The notes: generated from the letters alone by a model not told the origin. A stretch of DNA of 64,000 nucleotides from Archaeoglobus sulfaticallidus PM70-1 (GCF_000385565.1 NC_021169.1:1904571-1968570); one strand, 5' to 3'; shown: positions 9,047 to 54,547, counted from the stretch's first letter. Made by a program: numbers and translations.

Positions 9047-10963
9047 TTATTCTGGTACAATCTGGATGTATGGTCTCTCGATGACTTCCCACTCGTCAGT
9101 CTGTGGGTTGTATCTGACATTAACGAACTTTCTCCAGTTGGCGTCGTCGAGCTCTGGATAGTCTGCTCTGTAGTAGTATCCTGGATATCTTGTCTCCTTC
9201 CTTGCAAGGATTGTTCTTGCATGCGCCTCAGCAACCCACATTCTGTGGATGTTCTCCCAGACTCTCTGCAACTCGTGGAGGTCCTCAGCAGCAAGCTTCT
9301 CACTATCCTCCTTCAGGAACTGCAGGAGCTTGAGGCCCTGCTCGATCATCTTCTCGCTGGTGGTATAGTAGGTTGAGATACCACCAACATACTCATCCAT
9401 GATCTTCTGCAGTCTGAACATGAACATCTTTGGTCTGATGTAGTTCGGATTGATCTCTGGTCTTGTTGTGGCATCCTTGTACTGCTCGTAGAGGTTCAGT
9501 GGTCTGTAAACGATTTCCTTGAGTTTCTTGATTCTCTCTTCACTAACTGCTGGTGTGTAGTCCTTGTGGTCTCTTGCGAATTTGACTGCTGCCTTTCCGG
9601 CGATTCTTCCCTCTGTGAATGAACCGCTTGAGAACTTGTGACCGCTTGCTCCAGCACCATCACCGCAGGTGAAGAGACCCATGACTGTGGTCATTCTGTT
9701 GTACAGTGCCGGGAACGCATCCTTGTACTCATCCGGCATTGCATCGGATGGACCGCAGACCCAAGCACCGCTTGCACCAGCATGTGAGCCTATGAAGTAT
9801 GGCTCGGATGGCATGATCTCAGATGGCTCAACTGCTGGGTCGATGTTCATTGATGCCCAGAGCAGAGCCTGGGTGATTGTCATGTCGAGGAAGTCCTCCC
9901 AAGCCTCAGCCTCGAGTTCCTTGAATTTCTTCTTCCTCTCCTTCTCGTCCGGGATCTCCTCAGCAAGTGCCTGGATAGCCTCTGGTGTCCTCATGTAGAT
10001 CGGTCCTTTGCCCTCTCTCATGTCGAGGAGCATTGCATGGTTTCTCAGGCAGGTTGGCATTGGCTTCATTGAGCCGTATGGCTGGAACTTCTCAACTTCA
10101 GCCTTTCTTGTGACCATGTACTCCTCGCCAAATGCGTTTGTCGCCTTGCACTTAAAGAGCAGGAACCAAGCACCGACTGGACCATAACCATCCTTGTATC
10201 TTGCTGGAACGAATCTGACATCCATGCAAGTCAGCTCAGCACCAACCTGTGCCATTAATGCATAGGTAGATCCAGCGTTCCAAGGTGGATACCAAGCTCT
10301 ACCGAGACCCTCACCGGTTGATCTCGGTCTGAAAACGTGGACTGCTCCACCCATCGCACAGATGACTGCCTTTGCCTTGAACACATAGAACTTGTCCTCT
10401 CTAACGCTGAAACCAACTGCACCGCAAACTCTGTTCGGATCGTTATCATCTGTGAGCAGGTGTGTGATCATAACTCTCTCATAGATGTTCTCTGGGTCGA
10501 GAACGCTCTTTGCCGCCTCAGCAACGATTACCTTATAGCTCTCACCGTTTATCATTACCTGCCATGGGCCCTCTCTTACATACTTGCCGTCCTTATCCTT
10601 CCAGATTGGGAGCCCCCACTTCTCGAAGAGGTGGACACTTGAGTCAACATGTCTTGCAACATCGTAAACGAGATCCTCTCTAACAATACCCATCAGGTCA
10701 GTTCTGACATACTTCACAAAGTCCTCGGGCGTCCACTGCCCGTAGCTTGCCCTACCACTCATTCCGAGGTAGGTGTTGATGGCTGAGAGACCCATTGCAA
10801 CTGCACCGCTTCTATCGATAGCAGCCTTATCTACAAGGACAACTTTCATGCCGAGTGGTTTTGCCCAGTAGCATGCTTCAACTGCGGCACCACATCCAGA
10901 CATTCCACCGCCAAGAATCAAAACATCTGCTTCAACTTCCTTTATTTCAGCCTCGTATGGCAT
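9047..10963 (-). CDS. aprA: Adenylylsulfate (APS) reductase alpha subunit
   Basis: Catalytic FAD subunit of dissimilatory APS reductase, which converts APS to sulfite and AMP in the cytoplasm. The FAD loop GGGMSGCG is at residues 18-25. VDKAAIDRSGAVAMGLSA, GAVHVFRPRSTGEG and GDGAGASGHKFSSGSFTEG are family hallmarks. It has 638 aa, the usual length. It sits 20 bases after aprB with GGAGGTGT just before the ATG. It will work as AprAB with electrons supplied by Qmo encoded next door. Confidence 0.98.
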   Translation of the reverse strand: MPYEAEIKEVEADVLILGGGMSGCGAAVEACYWAKPLGMKVVLVDKAAIDRSGAVAMGLSAINTYLGMSGRASYGQWTPEDFVKYVRTDLMGIVREDLVYDVARHVDSSVHLFEKWGLPIWKDKDGKYVREGPWQVMINGESYKVIVAEAAKSVLDPENIYERVMITHLLTDDNDPNRVCGAVGFSVREDKFYVFKAKAVICAMGGAVHVFRPRSTGEGLGRAWYPPWNAGSTYALMAQVGAELTCMDVRFVPARYKDGYGPVGAWFLLFKCKATNAFGEEYMVTRKAEVEKFQPYGSMKPMPTCLRNHAMLLDMREGKGPIYMRTPEAIQALAEEIPDEKERKKKFKELEAEAWEDFLDMTITQALLWASMNIDPAVEPSEIMPSEPYFIGSHAGASGAWVCGPSDAMPDEYKDAFPALYNRMTTVMGLFTCGDGAGASGHKFSSGSFTEGRIAGKAAVKFARDHKDYTPAVSEERIKKLKEIVYRPLNLYEQYKDATTRPEINPNYIRPKMFMFRLQKIMDEYVGGISTYYTTSEKMIEQGLKLLQFLKEDSEKLAAEDLHELQRVWENIHRMWVAEAHARTILARKETRYPGYYYRADYPELDDANWRKFVNVRYNPQTDEWEVIERPYIQIVPE

Positions 10964-13533: not shown

Positions 13534-14577
13534 ATGGAAGCTCTGACGGTTGATGTCGGCACCGGGACTCAAGATGTTCTTTTATATGACAGTAGCAAAA
13601 ACATAAGAAACTGTCTGAAGATGATCCTTCCTTCTCCAACAAAGGTTGTTGCAGAAAGAATAAGGGTATGCACGGAATCCGGAAAGAACATCATGCTTAC
13701 CGGCTACACGATGGGGGGTGGACCATGCACCCGTTATGCCAGGAAACATATTGAGAGGGGACTTAGAATATTTGCCTTCCCAAAGCCTGCATTGACATTC
13801 AATGATGACTTACAGAAGGTAAGAGAGATGGGTGTCGAGATCGTTGAGTCAGAGATGGAGGATGCTGAGAGAATAGAAATGAGAGATGCATTCATGCCAG
13901 AATTCGAGGCTTTTTTCAAAAACCTGAGTGTCAGCATTCCGGATAAAATCTTCTTTTCCGTTCAGGATCACGGATTCTCGCCAGACATGAGCAACAGGAA
14001 ATTCAGGTTTATGGTGTTTGAGAGAACAGCCAGAAAAGGTAGTATTTACTCTTTCTTTTACAGGGATGTCCCTGAATACTTCAACAGGATGAGGAGCGTT
14101 GTTGAATCGATTGAGGATTATGGCAGGTCAGTAGGAAGGGAGTTCGAGGTATTCATTATCGATACGGTATTCTCCGCTGTGATTGGAGCTATGGTTGACT
14201 GCAAAGAATTTCCTGCTTTGATAGTTAACTTCGGTAACTCGCACACGATTGGGGCAGTTGTGGATGAAGATGGTACGATATACTCACTCTTCGAGCATCA
14301 CACATTTGCTATGAAGCAAAAAGGCTTAGAGGGTATCAACAGATTCATTGAGAGATTTGTTAGGGGAGAGATAAGCAATGAAGATGTTTTCAACGAGGGT
14401 GGACATGGAGCGTATGTGGATGAGGTGGTCGATGTTAAGGATAGAGTTTGCACAGGCCCGAATTCCCATCTATGCAAGTACAGAACAGCAAACCCAGCTG
14501 GAGACACGATGATAACAGGAAACATTGGAATGCTCAAGGCTTATTGTGAGCTGACAGGAGAGGAGTTGGTAATATAG
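13534..14577 (+). CDS. DUF1786 actin-fold protein (COG4012-like)
   Basis: 347 aa. The start MEALTVDVGTGTQDVLLYD is an ASKHA (actin/hsp70/sugar kinase) phosphate-1 loop. A second nucleotide-type motif ALIVNFGNSHTIGAVVDEDG appears near residue 230. A Gly/Cys stretch TMGGGPCTRYA and NPAGDTMITGNIG mark the DUF1786 family, which is found mainly in methanogens and Archaeoglobi. Some databases label it as a pyruvate-formate-lyase activator, but there is no radical-SAM motif here and that label should not be used. It lies just before the cofG/cofH/ahbC run on the same strand. Function unknown. Confidence 0.8.
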   Translation: MEALTVDVGTGTQDVLLYDSSKNIRNCLKMILPSPTKVVAERIRVCTESGKNIMLTGYTMGGGPCTRYARKHIERGLRIFAFPKPALTFNDDLQKVREMGVEIVESEMEDAERIEMRDAFMPEFEAFFKNLSVSIPDKIFFSVQDHGFSPDMSNRKFRFMVFERTARKGSIYSFFYRDVPEYFNRMRSVVESIEDYGRSVGREFEVFIIDTVFSAVIGAMVDCKEFPALIVNFGNSHTIGAVVDEDGTIYSLFEHHTFAMKQKGLEGINRFIERFVRGEISNEDVFNEGGHGAYVDEVVDVKDRVCTGPNSHLCKYRTANPAGDTMITGNIGMLKAYCELTGEELVI

Positions 14578-51817: not shown

Positions 51818-52510
51818 CTAAAATATCTCTGCCCCTTCCATAACAGTAATGCCCCTGTCAGTTATCATGTAGGGTACCGGTTTGCGTGAGTGCCTGATCC
51901 TCCTCATTTTAACCACTTCTAGAGCAAGAACCGGTTCTTCGAGTGGATGTTTTCTTATTATCTTCAGATTTATCGCCCCATCAGACATGTACTCCATTAT
52001 GCCATATTTGGTGGATTCTCCGCTTTTGTCAGACTCCGATGTCAGGATAGCTGTTGCTCCGGATTGCTTGATTATGTCTCTGAGGGATGATATGGCAAGC
52101 CACCGCTCTTTCTCATCAAATAAACTTTCCAGGATGCTCAGGCTATCGATAACAATTCTCCTGACATTCATCCTCTTAAAAACATTCAAAAGCTCGTTTG
52201 TCACCTTCTCGAGAGACTCCTTGACCATCACCACATCCAGCCTGATGATCTCCAGCTTATCATTGAAAGGCTCAAGATCCATTCCAAAGCTTTTGGCACT
52301 CTCAAGTATGCTATCCTCATCTTCATCAAGGCTTATGAAAACGGATTTCTCGTTATTCTTCAAACCTTCATATATGAAATGCAAACCAAAAGTAGTCTTT
52401 CCAGTACCGTAACTACCGTAAACCACTACAGTATGCCCCTCAGGGATGCCGCCACCAATAATACTGTCGAGTCCCTCTATTCCTGTGGATAACATGGCTT
52501 TATATATCAT
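51818..52510 (-). CDS. KaiC-like RecA-fold ATPase D (P-loop intact)
   Basis: About 230 aa single-domain KaiC-family protein. Walker A is GSYGTGKTTFGLHF, catalytic acidic pair in SVFISLDEDEDS, Walker B in VRRIVIDSLSILE. The C-terminal MITDRGITVMEG matches the ending of protein A in this cluster (DITDEGIVFKEG). GGTGAT four bases upstream decides the ATG at 52510. Last of four tandem KaiC-like genes. The target of its ATP cycle is unknown. Confidence 0.85.
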   Translation of the reverse strand: MIYKAMLSTGIEGLDSIIGGGIPEGHTVVVYGSYGTGKTTFGLHFIYEGLKNNEKSVFISLDEDEDSILESAKSFGMDLEPFNDKLEIIRLDVVMVKESLEKVTNELLNVFKRMNVRRIVIDSLSILESLFDEKERWLAISSLRDIIKQSGATAILTSESDKSGESTKYGIMEYMSDGAINLKIIRKHPLEEPVLALEVVKMRRIRHSRKPVPYMITDRGITVMEGAEIF

Positions 52511-52523
52511 GCTAATCACCGGC

Positions 52524-53303
52524 CTATACTATCCTCTGGAGCCTTGATATTATAAATCCTTCCGACGGGTCAAATGAGATGTCAAACCTCATTATCCCCC
52601 GTCTTTCAAGAATTGGTAGTGCACCTAGAAGTTTCCTTATAAACATTGATCTCTTAACCATTTCTTTTCCGTGTAAAAACTCAAAAACGATGACACCATC
52701 TGATGAGCTGATCAGTTCCTCCTCCTTGGCTTTTCCCACAACATCCTTGGTCATGAGACAGTAAACAAGCATGTTCTTCTTGATTATGAACTTTCTTAAT
52801 CCTGTAACGAAATCAACGAGATCTCTCCAGCTAAGCTCATTTCCACCAAGGACATCAGTTTTTCTCACCAGATCTATGAAGGAGTCGATCAAAAGAACAC
52901 TGTTATCTCCAACCTTTTCGAATCCATCGAAGAGATTTCTCAATAAATCTCCTTTTTTTAGAGCAGATAGGCCGACCTCAACATCAAGCCACGACAGTGG
53001 AACAACAGTTTTGGCAAAAAAATCTTTTGAGAAGCTCTTTATATCAATCTTATCTATCCATTCATTCCCGGATTTGGGAAATGTCAGCGTGAGCTCTCTT
53101 TTGATTTCATCAACGGTTGATGAAATCGCAAAATAATAGAGATTTTCAAATCCACTTTTAGCCAGTTTCATCAATGTCGTTAAGGCAAATTCTCTTCCTC
53201 CGGCTCCAACCTCTTCAAGCAGAAAAATCAATCCTGAGGGTAGACCTCCAATCTGACTGTCGAAAACATCAATTCCTGTTTTAAATTCGGCAAATTCAGT
53301 CAA
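52524..53303 (-). CDS. KaiC-like protein C (P-loop degenerate)
   Basis: About 259 aa with the KaiC fold order (TGIDVFDSQIGGLPSGLIFL at the start, VGDNSVLLIDSFIDLV as Walker B) but EEVGAGGREFALT where GxxxxGKT/S should be. ATP hydrolysis is therefore unlikely. The TTG at 53303 is favoured, six bases after GAGGTGA; it lies within the end of gene B. It may pair with intact paralogs A or D as a structural or regulatory subunit. Confidence 0.75.
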   Translation of the reverse strand: MTEFAEFKTGIDVFDSQIGGLPSGLIFLLEEVGAGGREFALTTLMKLAKSGFENLYYFAISSTVDEIKRELTLTFPKSGNEWIDKIDIKSFSKDFFAKTVVPLSWLDVEVGLSALKKGDLLRNLFDGFEKVGDNSVLLIDSFIDLVRKTDVLGGNELSWRDLVDFVTGLRKFIIKKNMLVYCLMTKDVVGKAKEEELISSSDGVIVFEFLHGKEMVKRSMFIRKLLGALPILERRGIMRFDISFDPSEGFIISRLQRIV

Positions 53304-53871
53304 TCTCAATCACCTCATCAACCATTAGAGCTAGCTGAGAGTAGTATGTTTCATCAAGCTCTTTTTCAACAGAAAACAGTGCTCCGAAAAATCCCTTTAC
53401 CCTTATTTTCGCAGTAATGTACCTTATAAATTTCAGCAGTGTTTCAAAGGATTTGTATAGCGATATCGTGGACAGTGAATCAAGATATATGAATCTGTTC
53501 TCAGTCCGAATCAGATCCATTGCCCTCTCTATAGATACCTGCATTAGAGTTGGATCCGGAGAGTTGATGTATATGCATCTATCAGTATCTATTTCTTCTC
53601 CTCCAGTCTGGCGGGTTATGCTGTCGATAAAGATCAATTTATTCAGATCTATTCCCTCTTTTTGCATTATCTTTTTCATGGACGCATAGGGTCTATTGAG
53701 CGTGACATAGATTCCCTCGGCTTTCTGGCACAGATACTTTGTTATCTCTAGGCTAACGTTCAGATACTTTTTAGCCGGAGCTTTAATCAGTATAACTTCT
53801 GCACCGGATGCAATTGCACTCTCAAGCTCTTCAATCAGATTTGTAGATGTAGCTGTAGTCTCTTCTGACAT
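53296..53871 (-). CDS. KaiC-like protein B (no P-loop)
   Basis: About 191 aa RecA-like core. AEVILIKAPAKKYLNVSLEI stands where the P-loop strand should be, without GKT/S. GIYVTLNRPYASMKKIM and IDLNKLIFIDSITR follow, and NRFIYLDSLSTISLYKS matches Walker B. It lacks the usual N-terminal TGIxxLDxxxGGG entry. It begins inside the end of gene A (41-base overlap) and ends inside the start of gene C, so all are co-translated. Confidence 0.72.
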   Translation of the reverse strand: MSEETTATSTNLIEELESAIASGAEVILIKAPAKKYLNVSLEITKYLCQKAEGIYVTLNRPYASMKKIMQKEGIDLNKLIFIDSITRQTGGEEIDTDRCIYINSPDPTLMQVSIERAMDLIRTENRFIYLDSLSTISLYKSFETLLKFIRYITAKIRVKGFFGALFSVEKELDETYYSQLALMVDEVIEID

Positions 53872-54547
53872 ACCATCCCTCTTTGAAAACAATACCCTCA
53901 TCAGTTATATCGTATGGAATCCACTCCAGCGGATGTGAACTTCTGTATTTCTTCAGAATTCTCATTGCCCTTTCATAACCATTTTCCGTGTGTAGCAGGT
54001 CAAGAAAGATAACCGATTCTGAAAGGTTCTTCGTCTCACTCCAGTCACCCATCATGGGTGCTTCCTCTATGAACAGGGCAGTTATATCATTTTTATAACA
54101 CAAATCAGCCATATACTTTATAACTCTCCTGAAAAGAACCGGATCTGCTAATGCTTTATCAAGATCTGTTACCGTATCAAAAACAATCATATCAACATCC
54201 TCTGGCTTCATTTTGATTGTTGTAATGACTGCTTGTTCTATCCTCTCCCTCGTTACGGGCATCATATATTTCGCATCAACCCTTATGAACCTCCAGTGTA
54301 TCTTATCGTAAACATCCTCCATGAACCTGAATTTCTTGAGGTACGTTTCACAGCTTCTTTTAACAAGAGTTGTTGCAAGATATGCCACCCCCATCCCATT
54401 CTTAGCCCCCTCTGCGGCCCAGTGTGACGCAAGAATTGTCTTCCCAATACCGCTCCTGCCCGTTACCAGGTTTACAGTGTTCTCGTCAAGACCGCCGCCA
54501 ATGGCATCATCCAGCCTTTTAAGACCAAACTTTAGCTTCATTTTCAT
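53831..54547 (-). CDS. KaiC-like RecA-fold ATPase A (P-loop intact)
   Basis: About 238 aa. LKRLDDAIGGGLDENTVNLV leads to Walker A GRSGIGKTILASHWAAEG. VDMIVFDTVTDLDKAL is Walker B, and MRILKKYRSSHPLEWIPYDI is a C-terminal KaiC-like segment. GTGGGG upstream supports the ATG at 54547 over an in-frame upstream start at 54613 with a hydrophobic extra stretch. First of four overlapping KaiC-like genes, promoter shared as a divergent region with purE. Confidence 0.82.
   Translation of the reverse strand: MKMKLKFGLKRLDDAIGGGLDENTVNLVTGRSGIGKTILASHWAAEGAKNGMGVAYLATTLVKRSCETYLKKFRFMEDVYDKIHWRFIRVDAKYMMPVTRERIEQAVITTIKMKPEDVDMIVFDTVTDLDKALADPVLFRRVIKYMADLCYKNDITALFIEEAPMMGDWSETKNLSESVIFLDLLHTENGYERAMRILKKYRSSHPLEWIPYDITDEGIVFKEGWYVRRDYSYIYKSD

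Follow-up and report, generated by a model that had tools for sequence, protein, structure and literature searches.

KaiC-like genes are numerous in archaea and, to our knowledge, a function has been established for almost none of them. In KaiC itself, the roles of the catalytic acid pair and of the inter-subunit K-x-R motif are established. The archaellum protein ArlH assembles into hexamers, autophosphorylates and binds ATP without hydrolysing it; whether it contacts the motor ATPase ArlI depends on its state (PMC8978795). Inactivated KaiC-like proteins (iKaiC) have already been described as archaeal signalling components (PMC5847659, citing Makarova et al. 2017) and KaiC-family genes of arCOG01171, 01172, 01173, 01174 and 01175 lie near type IV pilus (T4P) loci (Makarova et al. 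2016; PMC4858521).

The window, a stretch of 64,000 nucleotides, belongs to an archaeal genome of one contig (2,076,931 bases) and carries four KaiC-like genes, here A, B, C and D, arranged head-to-tail on the minus strand, with A and D exactly where the original prediction had placed them. The genes and their diagnostic motifs are as follows.

53831-54547, minus strand: gene A, single-domain KaiC ATPase-like (238 aa; PF06745 88.1 bits, cut-off 26.6)
54437-54460, minus strand: Walker A of A, GRSGIGKT (G/R/G/G/K/T invariant in 19 orthologs)
54368-54373, minus strand: T59-T60 of A, at or beside the catalytic-acid position of KaiC and D (no acid in 19/19 orthologs)
53296-53871, minus strand: gene B, truncated inactivated KaiC-like (191 aa; lacks the P-loop and the C-terminal K-M-R hairpin)
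53761-53784, minus strand: degenerate P-loop of B, KAPAKKYL (P-loop in 0/27 orthologs)
52524-53309, minus strand: gene C, putative KaiC-fold pseudo-ATPase (261 aa, TTG start)
53187-53216, minus strand: altered P-loop of C, EEVGAGGREF (family motif GxxGAGxx[E/D]F in 82/82)
52623-52634, minus strand: KLLG of C, at the place of the trans-acting K-x-R-G of KaiC (from profile alignment to KaiC)
51818-52510, minus strand: gene D, single-domain KaiC ATPase (230 aa; ATG at 52510, GTG at 52519 possible)
52394-52417, minus strand: Walker A of D, GSYGTGKT (K in 64/64 orthologs, T or S in 64/64)
52322-52327, minus strand: catalytic acid pair of D, D62-E63 in SLDEDED (E in 61/64)
51902-51910, minus strand: K-M-R of D, residues 201-203 (64/64; trans-acting nucleotide contact of KaiC rings)

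Each start had been expected to overlap the preceding stop. This holds for two of the three junctions, as the beginning of B shares 41 nt with the end of A and that of C shares 14 nt with the end of B, but D begins 13 nt past C with the ATG at 52510 as its start and 4 nt past it with the GTG at 52519, so the C/D junction has no overlap. Named from their sequences, the downstream neighbour of the cluster appears to be a biotin-ligase-like gene and the upstream neighbour purE, and the cluster itself contains no gene with a sensory or output domain. A sigma-70 promoter scan, using a model that does not apply to archaea, gave chance-level results.

The proposal of two active and two dead genes was sustained only in part. 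As predicted, Walker A is intact in A and D and absent from B and C, but only D combines Walker A, the Walker B Asp (64/64 orthologs) and the catalytic acid pair, and D alone among the four looks able to hydrolyse ATP. Its orthologs (n = 64) keep GxxGxGK[TS], one of them with E replacing the middle Gly, and the window protein scored 197.2 bits against PF06745 (gathering score 26.6) and passed TIGR03880 KaiC_arch_3 (254.4 bits, cut-off 249.45). A scored 61.0 bits against this latter model, below its cut-off. Orthologs of A (n = 19) share GRSGxGKT, with S in the third place in 17 and N in two, and retain the Walker B Asp (19/19) and K-K-Y-R (R in 18/19), whereas a profile alignment of A with D pairs T59-T60 with either F-D or D-E in D. 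Because Walker A is kept and both catalytic acids are lost, A probably binds ATP without hydrolysing it.

B and C had been predicted to retain a RecA-like fold and Walker B despite the loss of Walker A, and both expectations were confirmed. AlphaFold models were confident for B (pLDDT 91.3, pTM 0.87) and C (pLDDT 93.4, pTM 0.91), and Foldseek matched the B model best to FlaH (4yds, E 7e-6), with further KaiC-like proteins, and the C model to KaiC-like PH0186 (2zts, E 6e-13) and to KaiC/FlaH; these models and structural matches together support a RecA/KaiC fold for both proteins. The Walker B Asp is present in 27/27 orthologs of B and 80/82 of C. With this predicted fold and the loss of catalytic motifs, B and C fit iKaiC in the broad sense. 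B ends before the C-terminal hairpin that bears the inter-subunit motif and scored below the cut-offs of DUF835 (22.0 of 33.1 bits), DUF7504 (20.8 of 27) and PF06745 (19.1 of 26.6). Outside Archaeoglobales, relatives of B are more widespread but weaker, occurring in methanogens and sometimes in several copies, with six to seven iKaiC copies in three methanogen genomes (G097, G215, G370). At another locus (L103, genome G039, 9061-10340), a distant B-like iKaiC passes DUF7504 with 51.1 bits and starts at the end of a predicted membrane-protein gene, possibly forming a sensor-adaptor pair.

In C, the P-loop is a conserved altered motif rather than the product of simple decay. Across the 82 orthologs, G4 and G6 of the loop are kept, Lys is lost in 81 and Ser/Thr is mostly lost; all 82 have an acid (Glu in 80, Asp in two) with an invariant Phe right after it. 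The register of the loop was fixed by aligning the C profile to KaiC, and an initial register, with Lys kept and Thr replaced by Glu, was rejected since this alignment showed both Lys and Thr to be lost and the acid to be the next residue. We propose that the nucleotide site of C is unusable and that the protein has no plausible activity alone. The K-x-R-G motif is kept in 24/29 methanogen-type orthologs of C, whereas Archaeoglobi keep only K and haloarchaea mostly only R; loss of the Arg in the C of the window weakens the idea of a trans-acting finger for this genome. Window C fell below the PF06745 cut-off (13.0 bits, cut-off 26.6), which C orthologs of other groups pass (53.2 and 37.8 bits). 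Its best NCBIfam match was ArlH (E 4.7e-5), although the equivalog cut-off of that model (NF052589, 215 bits) was reached by neither D (58.4), A (38.5) nor C (23.2).

All four genes are under strong purifying selection, with pN of 0.08-0.20 against pS of 0.73-0.92 and pN/pS of roughly 0.09-0.27 in two within-genus comparisons, which marks them as true genes and not decaying copies. These ratios, together with motif conservation across genera, rule out that B and C are decaying pseudogenes. By hhalign profile comparison, A, C and D are clearly related to each other (A-D 99.7%, C-D 97.6%, A-C 97.0%), with B more remote (B-C 69%, E 4e-5). Two further candidate explanations were dropped. A PADLOC screen for anti-phage defence gave nothing relevant, the only match being a weak one of the mad8 P-loop to D (31.7 bits), and a mobile or viral origin was set aside as there was no phage match and one haloarchaeal megaplasmid match, to C.

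Conservation of the A-B-C-D order, on which the original prediction had been staked, was found in 19 Archaeoglobales genomes spanning two families and seven genera. The four genes are nonetheless not a fixed set, as had been proposed, since A or both A and B are missing from several Archaeoglobaceae. Among the Archaeoglobales loci examined, seven genomes (genera g2 and g11) carry a B-C-D variant and genera g5, g6 and g9 carry C-D only. C-D is thus the constant core, and A and B have been gained or lost in individual lineages. A was detected in 18/392 genomes of the phylum, every one from Archaeoglobales, whilst the C family was detected in 208/392 at E 1e-15, a small number of these being weak matches to other KaiC-like proteins. 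A contig profile search with an Archaeoglobi-only C alignment returned Archaeoglobales only, the named matches being Archaeoglobus and Archaeoglobales MAGs. None of A to D was found in G003, a 99% complete genome of the same genus as the window. Irregular copies were also seen: at L105 (G023:C133, 895-1615) C is broken by stops or frameshifts beside an intact D, possibly through sequencing error, and G005 carries, besides its A-B-C-D locus, a second and diverged C-D copy (L106, G005:C200, 27-1495) in which C has an in-frame TAG, possibly reflecting MAG contamination.

The distribution of C and D was consistent in all 31 genomes checked, in which neither was ever found apart from the other. A D ortholog scoring at least 264 bits was present in 20/20 C-bearing genomes, and in 11/11 genomes without C no D ortholog was detected (best score 172 bits). 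In haloarchaea, C stands alone at its locus and D lies unlinked elsewhere, with one per genome in 19/19 searched; these D orthologs scored 264-290 bits, the next KaiC reaching about 146 or lower, and the proteins (306-549 aa) carry an acidic N-terminal extension. In L253-L264 this extension is of low complexity and about 80-320 aa long, with a DWFERA-like start conserved in those read. Haloarchaeal C is annotated as 'HTR-like protein', as in Natrinema thermotolerans CP031304.1 (25.6% identity over 95%). The identification of CirA of Haloferax as a D ortholog was unsupported, CirA being a 27.5 kDa protein that sits among flagellar genes (PMC3941300), compared with 306-549 aa and an N-terminal extension for haloarchaeal D.

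Gene neighbourhoods link the C-D pair to type IV pili, a connection absent from the original prediction. In 26 genomes from 10 methanogen-type families, counted over C-D loci outside Archaeoglobi and haloarchaea, C-D divergently adjoins a gene for a T4P ATPase, after which comes tadC. Of the three remaining loci of that kind, L185 and L189 sit at the edge of a contig and L169 is a second copy. The linked ATPase is FlaI/ArlI-like (388-400 bits, cut-off 550) and the linked TadC is ArlJ-like, also under its cut-off; scores below the archaellum cut-offs point to a non-archaellum pilus. Divergent adjacency can also mean co-regulation instead of physical contact.

In Archaeoglobi, including the genome of the window, the A-D cluster is not beside pilus genes. 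A TadC tree nevertheless placed a single orthologous T4P clade in 19/19 C-D-bearing Archaeoglobi against 2/9 without C-D (Fisher ~3e-5, calculated by hand, ignoring genome relatedness and with the clade delimited after the tree was seen). Both C-D and this clade are missing from G003, and two genomes (G014 and G025) carry the pilus TadC but lack C-D, indicating that the module is not obligatory. Archaeoglobi genomes carry up to several T4P TadC paralogs. In the window genome, the T4P locus (C1:1328288-1331897) lies ~625 kb from the cluster and contains pilins, a dockerin protein and an inactivated KaiC (DUF7125) of its own. This stand-alone DUF7125 iKaiC (L137, G000:C1:1320001-1340000, 13619-14341) is upstream of the pilus ATPase and has YANPMSMPE in place of the P-loop, with similar genes beside T4P in G026 and G032. 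At 1163-2918 of L137, a class III pilin-like gene (AVSPVIGVILMVAITVIL) has as neighbours a protein with a dockerin domain and what may be a surface protein of cohesin type.

The explanation we favour, with moderate confidence, is that A to D represent an Archaeoglobales expansion of an older C-D module that is likely a T4P regulator, acting in a manner akin to ArlH on ArlI. D would bind and hydrolyse ATP and serve as the switch, and C would support it structurally within a mixed ring or dimer; a C that carries K-x-R-G could also complete the adjacent D site. The nucleotide state of C-D would be read by the pilus ATPase/TadC platform, toggling assembly against another state. Within the one operon of Archaeoglobales, A and B may form a second switch/adaptor pair, A as an ATP-holding subunit, as in ArlH, and B as a truncated adaptor of the DUF835/DUF7504 kind. 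Subunit contacts, hetero-oligomer formation and pilus regulation are what we infer from these patterns, and the weakest step is to extend a T4P role to Archaeoglobi, in which the genes lie apart. More tentatively, C-D may be a dedicated hetero-oligomeric T4P-motor switch across Halobacteriota, in which a GxxGAGxxEF pseudo-ATPase gates one hydrolysing subunit, Archaeoglobales having four subunits, of which one hydrolyses, one holds ATP and two are nucleotide-free.

A general signalling hub of KaiC and iKaiC without any tie to pili, in which the methanogen T4P neighbourhood reflects shared regulation, is possible but doubtful. Fusion of iKaiC to REC/PAS is an established archaeal theme (PMC5847659), the Archaeoglobi and haloarchaeal genes lie away from T4P loci, and B resembles DUF835/DUF7504, which are output domains of sensory proteins. 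Yet the divergent arrangement of C-D and ATPase-TadC is kept in 10 families, C-D and the T4P TadC clade have been lost jointly in several Archaeoglobi, and the cluster itself encodes neither sensory nor output domains. An association of the four products, as the original prediction had suggested, is plausible; that they build a single hetero-oligomeric ring of four subunits, active and inactive ones in a fixed order, is unlikely, even though the genes overlap in an order conserved in 19 genomes, KaiC-family proteins form hexamers and the inter-subunit position holds K-x-x-R in A and K-M-R in D. B lacks the hairpin that carries this motif, and many relatives have C-D without A and B, which precludes such a ring as the basic unit.

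Similarly improbable is that the genes are tandem duplicates transcribed together whose products stay unassembled in separate roles, each serving for example a different pilus or archaellum system. The clear paralogy of A and D and the several T4P TadC paralogs of Archaeoglobi genomes would accommodate such a division of labour, but every genome checked has either both C and D or neither, and C is left without a plausible activity of its own. A KaiC-type clock or timer is highly improbable: D aligns over its full length to KaiC CI (E 1e-47), but it remains far from the circadian KaiC cut-off (TIGR02655, 95.4 bits, cut-off 546.25) and A to D are single-domain proteins, whereas circadian KaiC has two domains.

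The C-D module is common to methanogens, haloarchaea and Archaeoglobi, and work on it provides a KaiC-like gene with a testable partner (C) and target (the T4P ATPase/TadC pair). If the C-D module is indeed a T4P regulator, control of filament motors in the manner of ArlH would not be confined to the archaellum but would apply to ordinary pili of archaea as well; the reading would also bear on the role of the uncharacterised haloarchaeal 'HTR-like protein', an ortholog of C that is annotated by name only and unlinked from its D partner.

Like ArlH (FlaH), the proteins described here combine a single KaiC/RecA domain and predicted ATP binding with a tie to a VirB11/ArlI-type ATPase and a TadC/ArlJ-type platform, and ArlH is the best NCBIfam match of C and FlaH the top fold match of B. 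ArlH is, however, one gene within archaellum operons, whereas here a pseudo-ATPase/ATPase pair accompanies a non-archaellum T4P, and the scores of A, C and D are all far under the ArlH cut-off. With iKaiC (DUF835, DUF7504, DUF7125, DUF7090, MEDS), B and C share the KaiC fold and the lost P-loop, but iKaiC are usually fused to or near REC/PAS, while B and C stand alone in an operon with active KaiC and C bears its own invariant GxxGAGxxEF motif. Cyanobacterial KaiC resembles D in its fold and shares with it the Walker motifs, the pair of catalytic acids and K-M-R; it differs in having two domains and KaiA/KaiB partners, against single-domain A to D. The general association of KaiC with T4P, including VirB11/TadC operons of Methanomicrobia, is as in Makarova et al. 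2016 (PMC4858521), the accessible part of which makes no mention of C and D as a pair or of their co-occurrence, nor of the invariant pseudo-P-loop and the four-gene form of Archaeoglobi. Set against these sources, iKaiC proteins and KaiC-T4P neighbourhoods were known before, and the C-D module and its four-gene expansion look new.
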